From: Exiguobacterium alkaliphilum 12/1
GTDB lineage: Bacteria > Bacillota > Bacilli > Exiguobacteriales > Exiguobacteriaceae
Direction: 5' to 3'
Assembly (NCBI RefSeq): GCF_000714435.1
Contig: NZ_JJMW01000019.1
Span: forward strand, 248,001 to 312,000
DNA length: 64,000 bases
Shown piece by piece: positions 23,118 to 28,842 of this stretch. The notes beneath the pieces were generated by a model. That model saw nothing but the letters and a program-made list of their open reading frames with translations. It was not told where the DNA came from and ran no database searches. How positions within the stretch are numbered: position 1 is the first letter of the stretch; every line of letters begins with the position of its first letter. The translations under genes and the position numbers were made by a program.

Positions 23118-24215
23118 ATGGCTACGAACGTATTGACGTGGTTCGACCACTTTCACACGCATCCGGAAGTGAGCTGGAAAGAAGTCGAGACGACGAAGAC
23201 GATTGCAACGATCTTGACCTCGCTCGGCGTATCGCACGAGACGTTCGATGACGTCACGGGCGTGTTGGCAGAGATTGGGGACGGCGAAGACGTCATCGCC
23301 GTCCGGGCCGATATCGATGCGTTATGGCAACAAGTCGATGGGACGTTTCAGGCAAACCATTCGTGTGGTCACGACGCGAACATGAGCATGGTGCTCGGCG
23401 CGCTCGATCTTTTGAAAGATGAGCCGTTACAAAAACGGGTCCGCTTTATCTTCCAACCGGCAGAAGAGCAAGGCAACGGTTCGCTCGCGATGATTGAGAA
23501 AGGCGCCTTGATCGATGTGACGGAACTATACGGGATCCATCTGCGTCCAATCGAGGAGCTCGCGCTCGGTCAGTTCGCGGCGACGATTCAACACGGGGCC
23601 GCCATCTTTTTAAGAGGCAAGGTCATCGGCGACGATGCGCACGGGGCACGTCCGCACCAAGGACAAAACGCGCTCGACGTCATGTTCACGATTCATCAAC
23701 AGTTGAAAAACATCTATCTGTCGCCGTTCGAACCTCATTCTGTGAAGTTGACCGGGGTGCAGGCCGGCAGCGACAACGTGAACATCATCCCTGGGAACGC
23801 CACGTTCTCGATTGACGTACGGGCCCAATCGAACGAGGAATTGCTCGCCTTGCGTGACCGGGTCGAGACAATGCTGCATCAGATTGAATCGCTTCACGGG
23901 GTGACGCTCGAGTGGGAGTGGCAAGACTTCACACCTGGAGCCGTCGTCGGCAAACGCTCGAGCCGGCATGCGACGGATGCGATCACGAGTCGGTACGGAA
24001 AAGAGGCGCTCGTCGAACGGATCGTGACGTCAGGGAGTGATGATTTTCATTTTTATACGGTGAAAAAACCGGAACTCGACGCAACGATGATTGGCATCGG
24101 CGCCAACTTGACGCCGGGGTTGCATCATCCGCACATGACGTTCGATCGGTCGGTTCTACAGGAAGGGGCAGTCTTGTTAGCGGATACGTTGCGCCGGGCT
24201 GCCACGGAAAAATGA
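23118..24215 (+). CDS. M20-family amidohydrolase (AmhX-like)
   Basis: A 365-residue metal-dependent deacylase of the M20D group. RADIDALW, NHSCGHDANMSMVLGA and QPAEEQGNG hold the metal site and the catalytic Glu; the dimerisation domain (about residues 180-280) contains DDAHGARPHQGQNALDV and NIIPGNATFSIDVRA. Such enzymes release carboxylates from N-acyl amino acids, including N-succinyl or N-acetyl forms. The HD-x-H pattern of the family reads HDAN here. Nearby racemase and GNAT genes suggest an N-acyl amino acid as substrate. It has its own terminator. Confidence 0.85.
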   Translation: MATNVLTWFDHFHTHPEVSWKEVETTKTIATILTSLGVSHETFDDVTGVLAEIGDGEDVIAVRADIDALWQQVDGTFQANHSCGHDANMSMVLGALDLLKDEPLQKRVRFIFQPAEEQGNGSLAMIEKGALIDVTELYGIHLRPIEELALGQFAATIQHGAAIFLRGKVIGDDAHGARPHQGQNALDVMFTIHQQLKNIYLSPFEPHSVKLTGVQAGSDNVNIIPGNATFSIDVRAQSNEELLALRDRVETMLHQIESLHGVTLEWEWQDFTPGAVVGKRSSRHATDAITSRYGKEALVERIVTSGSDDFHFYTVKKPELDATMIGIGANLTPGLHHPHMTFDRSVLQEGAVLLADTLRRAATEK

Positions 24216-24244: not shown

Positions 24245-24261
24245 TTATTGCCAACGTCTAA

Positions 24262-24275
24262 TGTAAGCGTTATCA
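24262..24275 (+). promoter_or_regulatory. Perfect cre site at the nhaC promoter
   Basis: TGTAAGCGTTATCA fits all 14 positions of TGWAANCGNTNWCA. Its last six bases, TTATCA, could serve as -35 for the -10 TATAAC at 24294-24299 (18-base spacer), so bound CcpA would block transcription. Confidence 0.7.
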
Positions 24276-24283
24276 TAATCCTA

Positions 24284-24322
24284 TTAGCGACAATATAACG
24301 ACAATTCTGAATTATTCGCTAA
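24284..24322 (+). promoter_or_regulatory. Operator A of the NhaC/racemase cluster
   Basis: CGACAATATAACGACAA (24288-24304) is a direct repeat of CGACAA with 11-base period. It matches 15 of 17 bases of a site in front of the racemase gene. It is framed by a 7-bp inverted repeat, TTAGCGA (24284-24290) and TCGCTAA (24316-24322), and covers the -10. Confidence 0.55.
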
Positions 24323-24337
24323 CGGGGAGGAAATTTG

Positions 24338-25762
24338 ATGGAACAGGGGAACAAGCAAGAAATGAAACTCGGATGGGCGCTCTTGCCGCTACTTGTCATG
24401 ATCGGGGTCATGCTCGTGGCGATTGTATTGCTCGAGCAAGGACCACATATCCCGCTCATCATCGGGACGGCGGTGGCATCGATGGTCGCCTACAAGCATG
24501 GCTTTAAGTGGAAAGAGATTGAAGAGATGATGTACAAAGGGATCCGGCTCGCCTTGCCGGCGGTCGTCATCATCATTCTCGTCGGTTTGACGATTGGGGC
24601 ATGGATTGGGGGTGGCATCGTCGCGACGATGATTTATTACGGCTTGACGATTATCTCGCCGGCTTATTTTCTCGTCACAATCTGTTTGATTTGTGCGGTC
24701 GTCGCATTATCAATTGGAAGCTCATGGTCGACGATGGGGACGATTGGTGTCGCTGGCATGGGGATTGGACTCAGCATGGGGATTCCGGCAGCGATGGTCG
24801 CGGGGGCGGTCATTTCCGGTGCCTATTTCGGGGATAAAATGTCACCGCTGTCGGATACGACGAACTTGGCTGCCGGCTTGACGCATACAAACTTGTTCGA
24901 ACACATCCGTCATATGCTCTATACGACGGTTCCGGGCCTGTTCATCGCGCTCGGTGTCTACTTTTGGCTCGGCAGACGGTTTAGCGAGTCGGGGACCGAT
25001 TCATCAGACATCACTCAGACGCTCGCGATCTTGCAAGACAGCTTCTTCATTTCACCATGGCTCTTGTTGATCCCGCTCGCGGTCATTGTACTCGTTGCGA
25101 AAAAAGTGCCGGCGATTCCGGCCCTCGTCGTCGGGATCGCGCTCGGGTTTCTCGCTCAATATGTCATTCAAGGCGGGACGCTCGCGGACAGTGTCGGGGC
25201 GTTGCAGAGCGGATACGTCATCAATACGGGGAACGAACTCGTCGACAACTTGTTCAGTCGAGGCGGGTTAGACGCGATGATGTATACCGTGTCGATGACG
25301 ATTGTCGCGATGACGTTCGGCGGAATCTTGGAATATTCGGGTATGCTCCAGTCGATTATGAATCAAATCGTGAAGCTTGCGAAGACGGCCGGTTCGATGA
25401 TTGCGTCGACGATTTTGGCAGGGTTCGCGACGAATGCCACATGTTCCGAGCAATACATATCGATTGTCGTACCGGCTCGCATGTTCGCCGGTGCTTATGA
25501 GAAGATGGGGCTTCAATCGAAGAACTTGTCGCGTGCGCTCGAGGACGGGGGGACGCTCACGTCCGTCTTTATCCCATGGAACACATGTGGCGTGTTCATC
25601 CTCGGAACGCTCGGCGTCGGGGCGTTCGAATACGCGCCATACGCTGTGTTGAACTTCATCGTCCCAGTCATCTCGGTCATCTATGCGTTTACTGGCTTCA
25701 CAATCGCGAAGCTCCATGTGTTACAGACTGTCCCACCGGATGATCAGCGACAAGCGCAATAA
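24338..25762 (+). CDS. NhaC-family Na+/H+ antiporter-like transporter
   Basis: A 474-residue membrane protein with about 11-12 helices. The NhaC hallmark KMSPLSDTTNLAAGLT follows a Gly/Ser-rich helix pair (SIGSSWSTMGTIG, GAVISGAYFGD), and a second conserved region has GFATNATCSEQYISIVVPARMF. NhaC proteins exchange sodium for protons, and some relatives exchange organic acids or amino acids. Between a deacylase and an amino-acid racemase it may move the substrate of this pathway. ATG 24338 has GGGGAGG eight bases upstream; TTG 24335 is an alternative. Confidence 0.88.
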   Translation: MEQGNKQEMKLGWALLPLLVMIGVMLVAIVLLEQGPHIPLIIGTAVASMVAYKHGFKWKEIEEMMYKGIRLALPAVVIIILVGLTIGAWIGGGIVATMIYYGLTIISPAYFLVTICLICAVVALSIGSSWSTMGTIGVAGMGIGLSMGIPAAMVAGAVISGAYFGDKMSPLSDTTNLAAGLTHTNLFEHIRHMLYTTVPGLFIALGVYFWLGRRFSESGTDSSDITQTLAILQDSFFISPWLLLIPLAVIVLVAKKVPAIPALVVGIALGFLAQYVIQGGTLADSVGALQSGYVINTGNELVDNLFSRGGLDAMMYTVSMTIVAMTFGGILEYSGMLQSIMNQIVKLAKTAGSMIASTILAGFATNATCSEQYISIVVPARMFAGAYEKMGLQSKNLSRALEDGGTLTSVFIPWNTCGVFILGTLGVGAFEYAPYAVLNFIVPVISVIYAFTGFTIAKLHVLQTVPPDDQRQAQ

Positions 25763-25765
25763 ACA

Positions 25766-25790
25766 AGGACGCGTCGTCTGACGCGTCCTT
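25766..25790. terminator. Bidirectional terminator, nhaC / regulator
   Basis: AAGGACGCGTC and GACGCGTCCTT form a perfect 11-bp stem with a short loop between convergent stops. Confidence 0.85.
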
Positions 25791-26974
25791 TACGTTGGCA
25801 GCTTGAATTTATAAACGGAACGAGGCCTTCCTTGCGCATAACTCATCTCTTCGCCAATCACCTCGACGTAGCCGGCATCAAACAGCTTTTTGATGAGCCG
25901 TTCCGTCGTCCGGCGCGACACGTGAAGGTAAGCGGTCATCTCTTTGGCGGTAAACTCATGTGTCTGTTTGGCGAAGCCGATAATTTTACTCACGTTCGCC
26001 GGACTGATTCCGAGTCGTTTCATCAAGTCGAACGCCCGGTCTTCTGTCACGCGGTACGCGATTGTTTCGTCTGTTCCGGGGAACGACAACTTTTTCGACG
26101 CGTCGATGATTCGGATCGGGTGATGCGTCGAGGCTGAGAGGGCGATTGTCGCGTGATCATGGGCCGTCTGATAGTCAGGCCCATACCCGATTCCGATTTT
26201 TGTCTCCTCATCGGAAGGGGCGAGTGTCTCGATTTGTAACGCCCGTTCAATCACACCTTTTGTGGTGAGCAGTGAGGTCGTGTCGGAATGGACCTCGACA
26301 TGACCGTGATGTGGCAACGCAGCAAGGTAGGTCTGAAGCCCACGCGTCGTCGAGGCATAGAGCACGACGGCGAATTGGGCCGCATCGGCCTGGGCGTGCC
26401 GGACCCGCTCGATCAGCTTTTCAACGTGAACGACAATCGTACGCGTCGGTTCGATCATGAGCTGGCTGTTATATCCGGCATCAAGCATCTCGTGATGGAC
26501 GCGCTCGATGCTCGTCACGGCAAGCGAGGCGTCATGAGGTTGCTTCGACGCATGAAACGTGAACACGTCCGTAAAGGAGACGTCGGGATCGATTTTCATG
26601 ACGCCCGGTCGAGCCATGTCCGGTAAAGAGGCGAAGATTGACGCCAATCGTTCCGGATCGTTCACATCCATCGTCAAGCGATCGAGCGGGACGTGCTGCG
26701 TAACGCTCGCATGTAAAAGTGTCGTCAAAAGCACCGTCTCGTCTTGGACGACGTGATGCGCGAGTGTTTCCTTCAAATAGGGAAGGGCGTATGCATACGG
26801 GAACGAACCGGAGAAGAAGACGGCGTCGAACGATCCGAGCTGTTGTGCGATGGTGGCCGCTTCTTTCGGATGGTGATAGATGAACGGACTGAACCGGACG
26901 TCATCGAACGAGACGGCGCGCATGACGGTCGAGACGAACGTGTCGGACCCGACGAGCGCGAGATGGATGGCCAT
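25790..26974 (-). CDS. Winged-helix regulator with Rossmann-like and GGDEF-like sensory regions
   Basis: A 394-residue protein not recognised as a named family. Residues 1-120 look like an alpha/beta ligand-binding fold (LALVGSDTFVSTVM, FDAVFFSGSFPYAYALPYL). A middle part contains IGIGYGPDYQTAHDHATIAL, a pattern seen in degenerate GGDEF or cyclase-like domains. Residues about 335-394 form a winged helix: HEFTAKEMTAYLHVSRRTTERLIKKLFDAGYVEV, ending in a basic wing QGRPRSVYKF. ATG 26974 is fixed by AAGGAGG; an earlier start at 26992 overlaps that RBS. It is divergent from the racemase gene and likely controls both nhaC and racemase promoters through the shared 17-bp sites. Confidence 0.7.
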   Translation of the reverse strand: MAIHLALVGSDTFVSTVMRAVSFDDVRFSPFIYHHPKEAATIAQQLGSFDAVFFSGSFPYAYALPYLKETLAHHVVQDETVLLTTLLHASVTQHVPLDRLTMDVNDPERLASIFASLPDMARPGVMKIDPDVSFTDVFTFHASKQPHDASLAVTSIERVHHEMLDAGYNSQLMIEPTRTIVVHVEKLIERVRHAQADAAQFAVVLYASTTRGLQTYLAALPHHGHVEVHSDTTSLLTTKGVIERALQIETLAPSDEETKIGIGYGPDYQTAHDHATIALSASTHHPIRIIDASKKLSFPGTDETIAYRVTEDRAFDLMKRLGISPANVSKIIGFAKQTHEFTAKEMTAYLHVSRRTTERLIKKLFDAGYVEVIGEEMSYAQGRPRSVYKFKLPT

Positions 26975-26992
26975 GAAAACTCCTCCTTGCAA

Positions 26993-27020
26993 TTTAACGA
27001 CTATTTAACGACAATATAAC
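26993..27020 (+). promoter_or_regulatory. Operator B and promoter of the racemase-GNAT operon
   Basis: CGACTATTTAACGACAA (26998-27014) matches operator A at 15 of 17 bases, with the same 11-base CGAC period. TTTAAC (26993-26998) and TATAAC (27015-27020), 16 bases apart, could be -35 and -10, so the site fills the spacer. Further TAACGA and ACGACA units follow to 27033. The regulator gene starts just upstream on the other strand. Confidence 0.55.
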
Positions 27021-27052
27021 TAACGATACGACAGAAGTAAAGGAGCTTATGT

Positions 27053-28165
27053 ATGAAAATTGAGAAGATTGAAGTGTTTGCCGTCCGTTTCCCACTAAAA
27101 GTCCCATTCGTCGTCAGCTATCACCGCTATGAGGATATGCCGTCCGTCATCGTCAAATTAACGAGTGCTTGCGGTCATGTCGGATACGGCGAAGCGGTCG
27201 CCGATGAGCATGTTACCGGTGAGTCGCTAGAGAGCACGATTTCAATCATCCATCGCTTGCTCGGACCACAGTTGATTGGGGAGAACCCGATGCATATGGA
27301 ACGGATTCACGATGTGATGGACCGGTCCATCCGGGACGTGCCCGCCGCGAAAGCGGCACTCGACATCGCGTGCCACGACCTCGTCGGGAAGAAGCTTGGT
27401 CTTCCGGTATACGACTTGATCGGTGGGCGTTATCATGACGCCTTCCCCGTGACGCATGTCCTCAGTATCGGTGACCCGGATGCGATGGCCGAGGAAGCGA
27501 AGCAGCAACTCGATGCCGGTTACACGTCCATCAAGATGAAAGTCGGGGTCGACGTCGCCTCTGACGTCGCGCGCGTCGCCGCGGTCCGACGCGCGGTCGG
27601 ACCGGACGTCCCGATTCGCGTCGACGTGAACCAAGGCTGGGAGAATGCCGGGAAGACGCTACAGGCGATGCAGCAGCTCATCCCGTATGCGCTCGACTGG
27701 ATCGAACAGCCGGTTCGGGCCGACGATTTCGAGGGGATGGCCGAAGTGAAAGCGAAGAGTGTCGTCCCGATCATGATTGATGAAGGAGTGCGCGGCATGC
27801 CTGAGATGCGCCGGTTGACGCTCATGCAGGCGGCACACAAAGTGAACATCAAACTGATGAAGTGCGGTGGGATCTATCCGGCGAAAAAGCTCGTCCATAT
27901 CGCGGAAATGTCAGGAATCGAGTGTCAAATCGGGTCGATGGTCGAGTCGTCCATCGCATCGAGTGCGGGCTTCCATGTCGCCTTCTCAAGTAAAATCGTA
28001 CGTTCCGTCGAATTGACGGGCCCGCTCCGGTTCGCACAAGATGTCGGGAACTTGCAGTACGATTTGCCGTTCATCCGCTTGAACGAACAGCCCGGACTTG
28101 GGATCGAAGTCGATGAGGCCGTCCTCGAGCAGTTGGCGACGGCGCGGTATGAGGTGACGGGCTGA
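27053..28165 (+). CDS. Enolase-superfamily racemase/epimerase, N-succinyl-Arg/Lys racemase-like
   Basis: A 370-residue MLE-subgroup enzyme. The two-base catalytic pair is Lys163 (second Lys of IKMKVG) and the Lys in VNIKLMKCGG near 267; metal ligands are Asp191 (RVDVNQGW), Glu218 (WIEQPV) and Asp243 (MIDEG). Databases would probably call it dipeptide (L-Ala-D/L-Glu) epimerase, but the DxD motif that holds the dipeptide ammonium group in those enzymes reads ELTGP here. A divergent Bacillus cereus member of this type has been assigned N-succinyl-Arg/Lys racemase activity (recalled). The GNAT gene overlaps by one base (TGATG). Confidence 0.8.
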   Translation: MKIEKIEVFAVRFPLKVPFVVSYHRYEDMPSVIVKLTSACGHVGYGEAVADEHVTGESLESTISIIHRLLGPQLIGENPMHMERIHDVMDRSIRDVPAAKAALDIACHDLVGKKLGLPVYDLIGGRYHDAFPVTHVLSIGDPDAMAEEAKQQLDAGYTSIKMKVGVDVASDVARVAAVRRAVGPDVPIRVDVNQGWENAGKTLQAMQQLIPYALDWIEQPVRADDFEGMAEVKAKSVVPIMIDEGVRGMPEMRRLTLMQAAHKVNIKLMKCGGIYPAKKLVHIAEMSGIECQIGSMVESSIASSAGFHVAFSSKIVRSVELTGPLRFAQDVGNLQYDLPFIRLNEQPGLGIEVDEAVLEQLATARYEVTG

Positions 28166-28842
28166 TGTGGTCTGGGGTTTGGAACGGTCTCACGTTACAC
28201 GTTCGCCATTTGACGGAACAGGATTTACCCGCCATCGAGTCCGTCCAACGAGCGGTCATTGATGAATTGACCGAGTCCGCTCACTATCAAGCGCTCACGA
28301 CTGGCGAGTTTCAAAAACTGTTGGCAGACCGAACCATCATCGGGGCATATCGGGACGAAGATTTAATCGCGTTTCGCGCGCTCCTCATCCCGCCAATCGA
28401 TGCAGAGCATCTCGGCCGGGACATCGGGTACCCGGAACACTCACTCGAGCGCATCATCTATCAGGAAGTGACGAACGTCCATCCGTCGTTTCGGGGTTAT
28501 CGACTGCAACAACATCTCGGCCACCTCTTGATGGAGGCGTTTAGCCAAGACGTCCGATTCGACCTCGTCTGTGCGACGGTCGCCCCGTTCAATATTCCGA
28601 GCTTGAAAGATAAGTTCGCCCTTGGACTTCGGATTGGCGCGCTGAAGCCGAAATACGGGGGCAAATGGCGCTACATCTTCATGAGAGAGCTACACACCGG
28701 TTGGCATGGGGATGGACTCGTCACGTCCGTCGAGATGGCTGACACGGCGCGACAAGTGCGTCTGTTACAGGACGGCTGGTATGGGACGGGTATGCGTGAA
28801 ATAGATGGGACATGGTATATCGACTACGAAAAACAAGCCTGA
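28165..28842 (+). CDS. GNAT-family acyltransferase
   Basis: A 225-residue protein with a GNAT core: LHVRHLTEQDLPAIESVQ at the N-terminus, EVTNVHPSFRGYRLQQHLGHLLM as the acyl-CoA pyrophosphate loop, then ATVAPFNIPSLKDKFALGL and a C-terminal extension. ATG 28165 overlaps the racemase TGA, so the two are coupled. In the known N-succinyl-amino-acid racemase pathway a GNAT enzyme succinylates the D-amino acid before racemisation; that role is inferred from context only, and acetyl or another acyl donor is possible. Confidence 0.8.
   Translation: MWSGVWNGLTLHVRHLTEQDLPAIESVQRAVIDELTESAHYQALTTGEFQKLLADRTIIGAYRDEDLIAFRALLIPPIDAEHLGRDIGYPEHSLERIIYQEVTNVHPSFRGYRLQQHLGHLLMEAFSQDVRFDLVCATVAPFNIPSLKDKFALGLRIGALKPKYGGKWRYIFMRELHTGWHGDGLVTSVEMADTARQVRLLQDGWYGTGMREIDGTWYIDYEKQA

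Follow-up and report, generated by a model that had tools for sequence, protein, structure and literature searches.

In the window, the 64,000-nucleotide stretch of Exiguobacterium alkaliphilum 12/1 DNA that was analysed, a regulator encoded on the minus strand is flanked by genes coding for an M20 amidohydrolase and an NhaC-family antiporter on one side and an enolase-superfamily racemase and a predicted GNAT-fold acyltransferase on the other (Table 1). The racemase scores below the cut-offs of the NCBIfam racemase equivalogs, and its closest PDB entries are presumably structures of the Bacillus cereus N-succinyl-Arg/Lys racemase, an enzyme reportedly treated by Song and colleagues in 2007. 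PMC4215206 cites Song et al. 2007. The GNAT-fold protein is recognised by no Pfam or NCBIfam model and is conserved in all of the clusters compared here. In Geobacillus, the N-succinylamino acid racemase (NSAR) pathway consists of a GNAT N-succinyltransferase, NSAR and an M20 desuccinylase. Genes predicted to code for the same three enzyme types occur together at this locus, with those of an NhaC antiporter and a dedicated regulator in addition. This gene content suggests a pathway for the conversion of D- to L-amino acids, in which D-amino acids would be salvaged by N-succinylation, racemisation and hydrolysis.

Table 1. Genes and predicted regulatory features around the two repeat sites (positions in the window)
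Feature	Position	Strand	Details and evidence
M20 amidohydrolase	23118..24215	+	TIGR01891 268 bits; PF01546/PF07687; upstream of nhaC
nhaC core promoter (predicted)	24248..24276	+	TTGCCA-17-TATCAT; promoter scan 10/12; start ~24283
cre-like site over nhaC -10	24262..24275	+	TGTAAGCGTTATCA; probable CcpA site; sequence
nhaC operator (predicted)	24284..24302	+	TTAGCGAC 24284-24291 and ATAACGAC 24295-24302; tandem repeat, 11-bp period; sequence, repeat finder
Possible accessory half-site of nhaC operator	24303..24322	+	AATTCWGAATT then TTCGCTAA; genus alignment; function inferred
NhaC-family antiporter (predicted target)	24338..25762	+	TIGR00931 446 bits vs cut-off 370
Regulator, 394 aa	25790..26974	-	PrpR_N-like sensor 1-196, predicted GGDEF-like middle ~200-300, winged helix 310-394
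Regulator/racemase operator (predicted)	26993..27012	+	TTTAACGAC 26993-27001 and TTTAACGAC 27004-27012; sequence, repeat finder
Regulator promoter (predicted)	27013..27041	-	TTTACT-17-TATATT; promoter scan; operator abuts -10 and covers predicted start
Enolase-superfamily racemase (predicted target)	27053..28165	+	phmmer 1e-154; closest PDB 2p88/2p8b/2p8c
GNAT-fold acyltransferase (predicted)	28165..28842	+	AF2 pLDDT 93.8; Foldseek matches to GNAT acetyltransferases; co-transcribed with racemase by position

No Pfam or NCBIfam family scores above its cut-off for the regulator as a whole, and no study of this protein was found in literature searches. In its AlphaFold2 model (pLDDT 83.9), residues 1-196 fold like the sensor domains of the NtrC-type propionate regulator PrpR (2pju_C, VIA Z 15.7) and of Clostridium acetobutylicum 2q5c_A (VIA Z 18.0) over approximately 180 residues at 9-11% identity, while the Pfam PrpR_N model has no match over this region. 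Unlike the PrpR/NtrC activators, in which a sigma-54 AAA+ domain and a Fis HTH come after the PrpR_N sensor, the regulator gives no hit to an AAA+ domain, for which 394 amino acids leave no room; its sensor is instead followed by a GGDEF-like domain and, at the C-terminus, by a winged helix. The middle domain is poorly matched and is predicted to be GGDEF-like from hits in paralogs to GGDEF_GdpP and GTP cyclohydrolase III (GCH_III) that lie below the cut-off. The C-terminal residues 310-394 fold like winged helices of the MarR/ArsR/TFE-alpha type (VIA Z ~9-10), with weak hits to MarR_2 and HTH_11; the MarR family cut-offs are missed (24.1 bits against 27 for PF12802 and 19.7 against 24.6 for PF01047), while one paralog exceeds the HTH_11 cut-off by 0.3 bit. 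The winged helix is the most conserved part of the regulator, and the residues invariant in 26 divergent members (E358, R359, K362, G374, E375, G382-P384 and Y388) cluster within it, as is expected if the DNA sequence that it reads stays constant.

The earlier note had drawn attention to two 17-bp sequences agreeing at 15 of 17 bases, and both CGACAATATAACGACAA (24288-24304) and CGACTATTTAACGACAA (26998-27014) are found in the sequence as described. The 11-bp spacing of their CGAC units also holds, with CGAC starting at 24288 and 24299 in the nhaC site and at 26998 and 27009 in the regulator/racemase site, but the repeated unit extends beyond CGAC, the repeat finder returning TAGCGACAAT/TAACGACAAT and ATTTAACGACT/ATTTAACGACA. 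As read from the sequence, the refined element is TTARCGAC-N3-WWARCGACRA, in which WTARCGAC is repeated in tandem every 11 bp. A degenerate third unit, AATATAAC, is located at 27013-27020 in the regulator/racemase operator, and the TTCGCTAA of the possible accessory half-site at nhaC is an inverted near-copy of TTAGCGAC. In pattern searches of the 3.1 Mb genome, the merged pattern CGACWATWTAACGACAA matched exactly at these two sites only, with no exact match for the reversed-pattern control. With up to three mismatches allowed, 23 matches were obtained against 12 in the reversed control, so that only near-exact matches are informative within this genome. Two looser matches were considered as further sites and rejected: C19:319978 (two mismatches) follows a PTS gene within a terminator region and is lost in relatives, while C19:324207 (three mismatches) sits where a coding region ends.

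Each site had further been proposed to overlap a core promoter. This is the case for the site at 26998, which overlaps the predicted promoter of the regulator on the minus strand, while the nhaC site instead follows its promoter: the predicted nhaC core promoter ends just before the site, which thus spans roughly positions +1 to +20 and not the -10 or -35 elements. The nhaC -35 TTGC, the 17-bp spacing and TATCAT are retained across the genus alignment, as are the -35, the -10 and the spacer length of the regulator promoter, and the arrangement of the latter in Psychrobacillus is similar. The cre consensus is TGWNANCGNTNWCA, and in the cre-like site both TGTAAGCG and TATCA are conserved in the genus, which suggests that nhaC is under the control of CcpA. 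In several other Bacilli (L130-L134), too, sequences resembling cre lie near the nhaC promoter. For the racemase operon no obvious promoter is seen, the candidates being a -10 at TATAAC or a weak TTGCAA-17-GACAAT, so that this operon may be either repressed or activated. As one of the sites is located in the divergent gap between the regulator and racemase genes, it probably controls the regulator as well. Alternatively, the regulator might bind these sites and, in the presence of its ligand, activate the racemase operon and perhaps nhaC as well. Several activators are known among the proteins with a PrpR_N domain, and the site in the divergent gap overlaps the expected -35 and spacer of a racemase promoter that has no good -35. 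Activation is nevertheless unlikely as an overall explanation, given that the site has the classic position of a repressor, at the start or downstream of it and beside a good core promoter, at nhaC, at the regulator promoter and in several paralog loci; at nhaC and several of the paralog loci, the predicted -10 precedes the site by only a few bases.

All 18 same-genus genomes share one gene order (M20 amidohydrolase, nhaC, minus-strand regulator, racemase, GNAT-fold gene), except that nhaC is lacking in G013. The site in the regulator/racemase gap is kept in 17 of the 18 genomes and the nhaC operator is identical in all 17 that have nhaC, in line with the conservation in orthologous clusters for which the earlier note had proposed to look. 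The operators persist while the flanks diverge and the identity of the regulator ranges from 83 down to 43%. In the genus alignment the operator block has a mean majority identity per column of 0.94-0.97, compared to ~0.80 outside it, a figure that includes conserved Shine-Dalgarno and promoter elements. Nor are unrelated occurrences numerous, as a search of 19 whole genomes with a 21-bp form (up to three mismatches) returned these sites and a single stray match. Some variation is seen at individual loci. In G011 (L050), exactly one 11-bp unit has been lost from the regulator/racemase gap, and nhaC carries an in-frame deletion of approximately 47 codons. In G013 (L057) the operator in the regulator/racemase gap is intact and nhaC is missing from between the M20 and regulator genes, while in L006 (G018:C7:50746-51930), the record of which is a MAG, the regulator reading-frame match is interrupted by one TAA.

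The sites are also found well beyond the genus. Relatives of the regulator with 32-34% identity are encoded in the same cluster in Psychrobacillus, where the operator is present in the regulator/racemase gap and a near-copy, with a second unit that is mostly TAAACGTC, is found at nhaC. When 399 Bacilli genomes were searched with a profile, regulator-family matches were obtained in 145, a count at a lenient threshold that includes paralogs and many partial matches. In 15 further Bacilli the racemase cluster is accompanied by an adjacent regulator (27-38% identical), and the regulator/racemase operator is present in all 15; the M20 gene was not found within the fetched stretch in seven of these. 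A full or degenerate copy of the nhaC operator occurs in 11 of the 15 clusters and is absent from four clusters of one genus (L125, L126, L127 and L129). The nhaC leader in these four is different and conserved, TTGACTTT..TTTTTTGAATATTAAGCTAAAAA..CGTAAAAA, a hint that another regulator may have taken over. Among more distant relatives (23-28% identity), a position weight matrix (PWM) trained on such sites found a match in 24 of 25 paralog loci, L159 being the only one with no recognisable site by PWM; a few scores, such as that of L151, are not above the maximum of the shuffled locus, so that position carries the weight there. The paralog-locus sites are mostly located 70-180 bp past the regulator stop codon or just before a racemase gene, and are oriented in the sense of the regulator except in L140, where the orientation is opposite.

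With few exceptions, the sites in these clusters are oriented in the sense of the metabolic operon. Repeats in this orientation, within the predicted 5' leaders of nhaC and of paralog operons with recognisable promoters, could in principle act in the mRNA, as targets of an RNA-binding protein or as an attenuator, and a possible inverted arm (TTAGCGA/TCGCTAA) would fit such a role. A function in the leader is nonetheless highly improbable, as the inverted arm is not retained in every genome, the site in the regulator/racemase gap overlaps the regulator start and is antisense to the regulator transcript, and the linked protein carries a winged-helix DNA-binding domain.

The degenerate pattern WWARCGACNNNWWARCGACRA was also searched in the 399 Bacilli genomes regardless of genes. 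Outside the genus it gave 47 hits, 37 of which have a regulator-family gene on the same contig within 8 kb (binomial p ~3e-56, the crude null taking no account of kinship among the genomes; Fisher p ~3e-12 at the genome level). As related genomes were counted separately, these p-values overstate independence, and the replication over several families is the stronger argument. The linked hits are intergenic and located upstream of racemases or of YfcC-like transporters or ABC permeases, both of the latter named by eye, and an additional hit (G186:C4:2502534) lies 50 bp from the end of a regulator-family member. Of the nine unlinked hits, the five inspected fall inside reading frames and were rejected as operators; three of these five share a gene (reading ..YNDSKATN) that is probably MurD. 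Eleven clusters contain the racemase (60-66% identical) and the GNAT-fold gene but no adjacent regulator, and in ten of these the operator is absent within ~7 kb, so that the site goes with the regulator and not with the enzymes. The exception, L221, has a site before nhaC, and its genome (G195) encodes regulator-family matches elsewhere. The site is thus present at 15 of 15 clusters with an adjacent regulator against one of 11 without. In 18 of 19 sister-group genomes lacking both the regulator and the racemase there is no match, and the remaining one has a single match of a type found in a reading frame elsewhere.

These distributions bear on two other explanations. The PhoP box of Bacillus is a TTAACA-N5-TTAACA direct repeat, and the sites resemble it in their 11-bp spacing and TTAAC core, so that a different global regulator using such repeats, for example PhoP, could be considered. 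This is highly improbable, given that the genome contains no other exact site, the pattern clusters at the regulator family across the 399 genomes and the site is missing from ten of the eleven clusters without an adjacent regulator; in contrast to the PhoP box, the sites carry a CGAC extension and are local to one regulator family, with no genome-wide regulon. A chance likeness between two promoter segments that are both AT-rich, preserved through close kinship, would be compatible with the presence of only two copies in the genome and with the frequency of loose matches. It can be practically dismissed, as the sites are conserved while their flanks diverge and recur in distant Bacilli genera beside regulators only 23-38% identical, and as it is contradicted by the 399-genome pattern search, the PWM matches at paralog loci and the clusters without a regulator.

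Very probably, then, the two sites are operators through which the regulator encoded between them exerts repression, and the conservation and co-occurrence of site and regulator support their attribution to this protein in the earlier note. The winged helix would read TTWARCGAC, and the regulator, bound at the nhaC start and at the start of its own promoter, would block RNA polymerase and so repress nhaC and its own gene. It would also control the racemase-GNAT operon, the promoter of which would overlap the same site, while nhaC may additionally be controlled by CcpA via the cre-like site over its -10. A ligand bound by the PrpR_N-like sensor would lift repression; an amino acid is the likeliest candidate, perhaps a D-amino acid or an N-acyl form of one. 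All four of these elements, direct binding, repression rather than activation, the ligand and the pathway, we infer from sequence comparison. It is an even call whether a wider reading also holds, namely that the regulators form an undescribed one-component family (PrpR_N-like sensor, GGDEF-like domain and winged helix), found in about a third of the sampled Bacilli genomes, that shares an ancient tandem TTWARCGAC code at 11 bp, governs clusters for amino-acid and peptide uptake, racemisation and hydrolysis, binds head to tail and directly senses D- or N-acyl amino acids. An unnamed regulator family (145 of the 399 sampled genomes at the lenient threshold) is hereby given a proposed binding code and candidate targets, and its operators become predictable from sequence across many genera. 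The transporters, racemases and peptidases linked to it represent a testable regulon and a simple route toward the physiological inducer of N-succinylamino-acid-racemase-type pathways.

On the tandem repeats, two and sometimes three subunits would be arranged head to tail, each 11 bp, or one helical turn, from the next. Palindromes are the usual targets of MarR dimers, and although the C-terminus of the regulator folds like a MarR-type winged helix, the core of its predicted sites is a tandem direct repeat. In the paralog loci L181-L187 an inverted half-site directly follows the direct repeat (e.g. TAACGACAAGTGTCGTTA), and this combination of palindrome and direct repeat may reflect the binding of more than two subunits.
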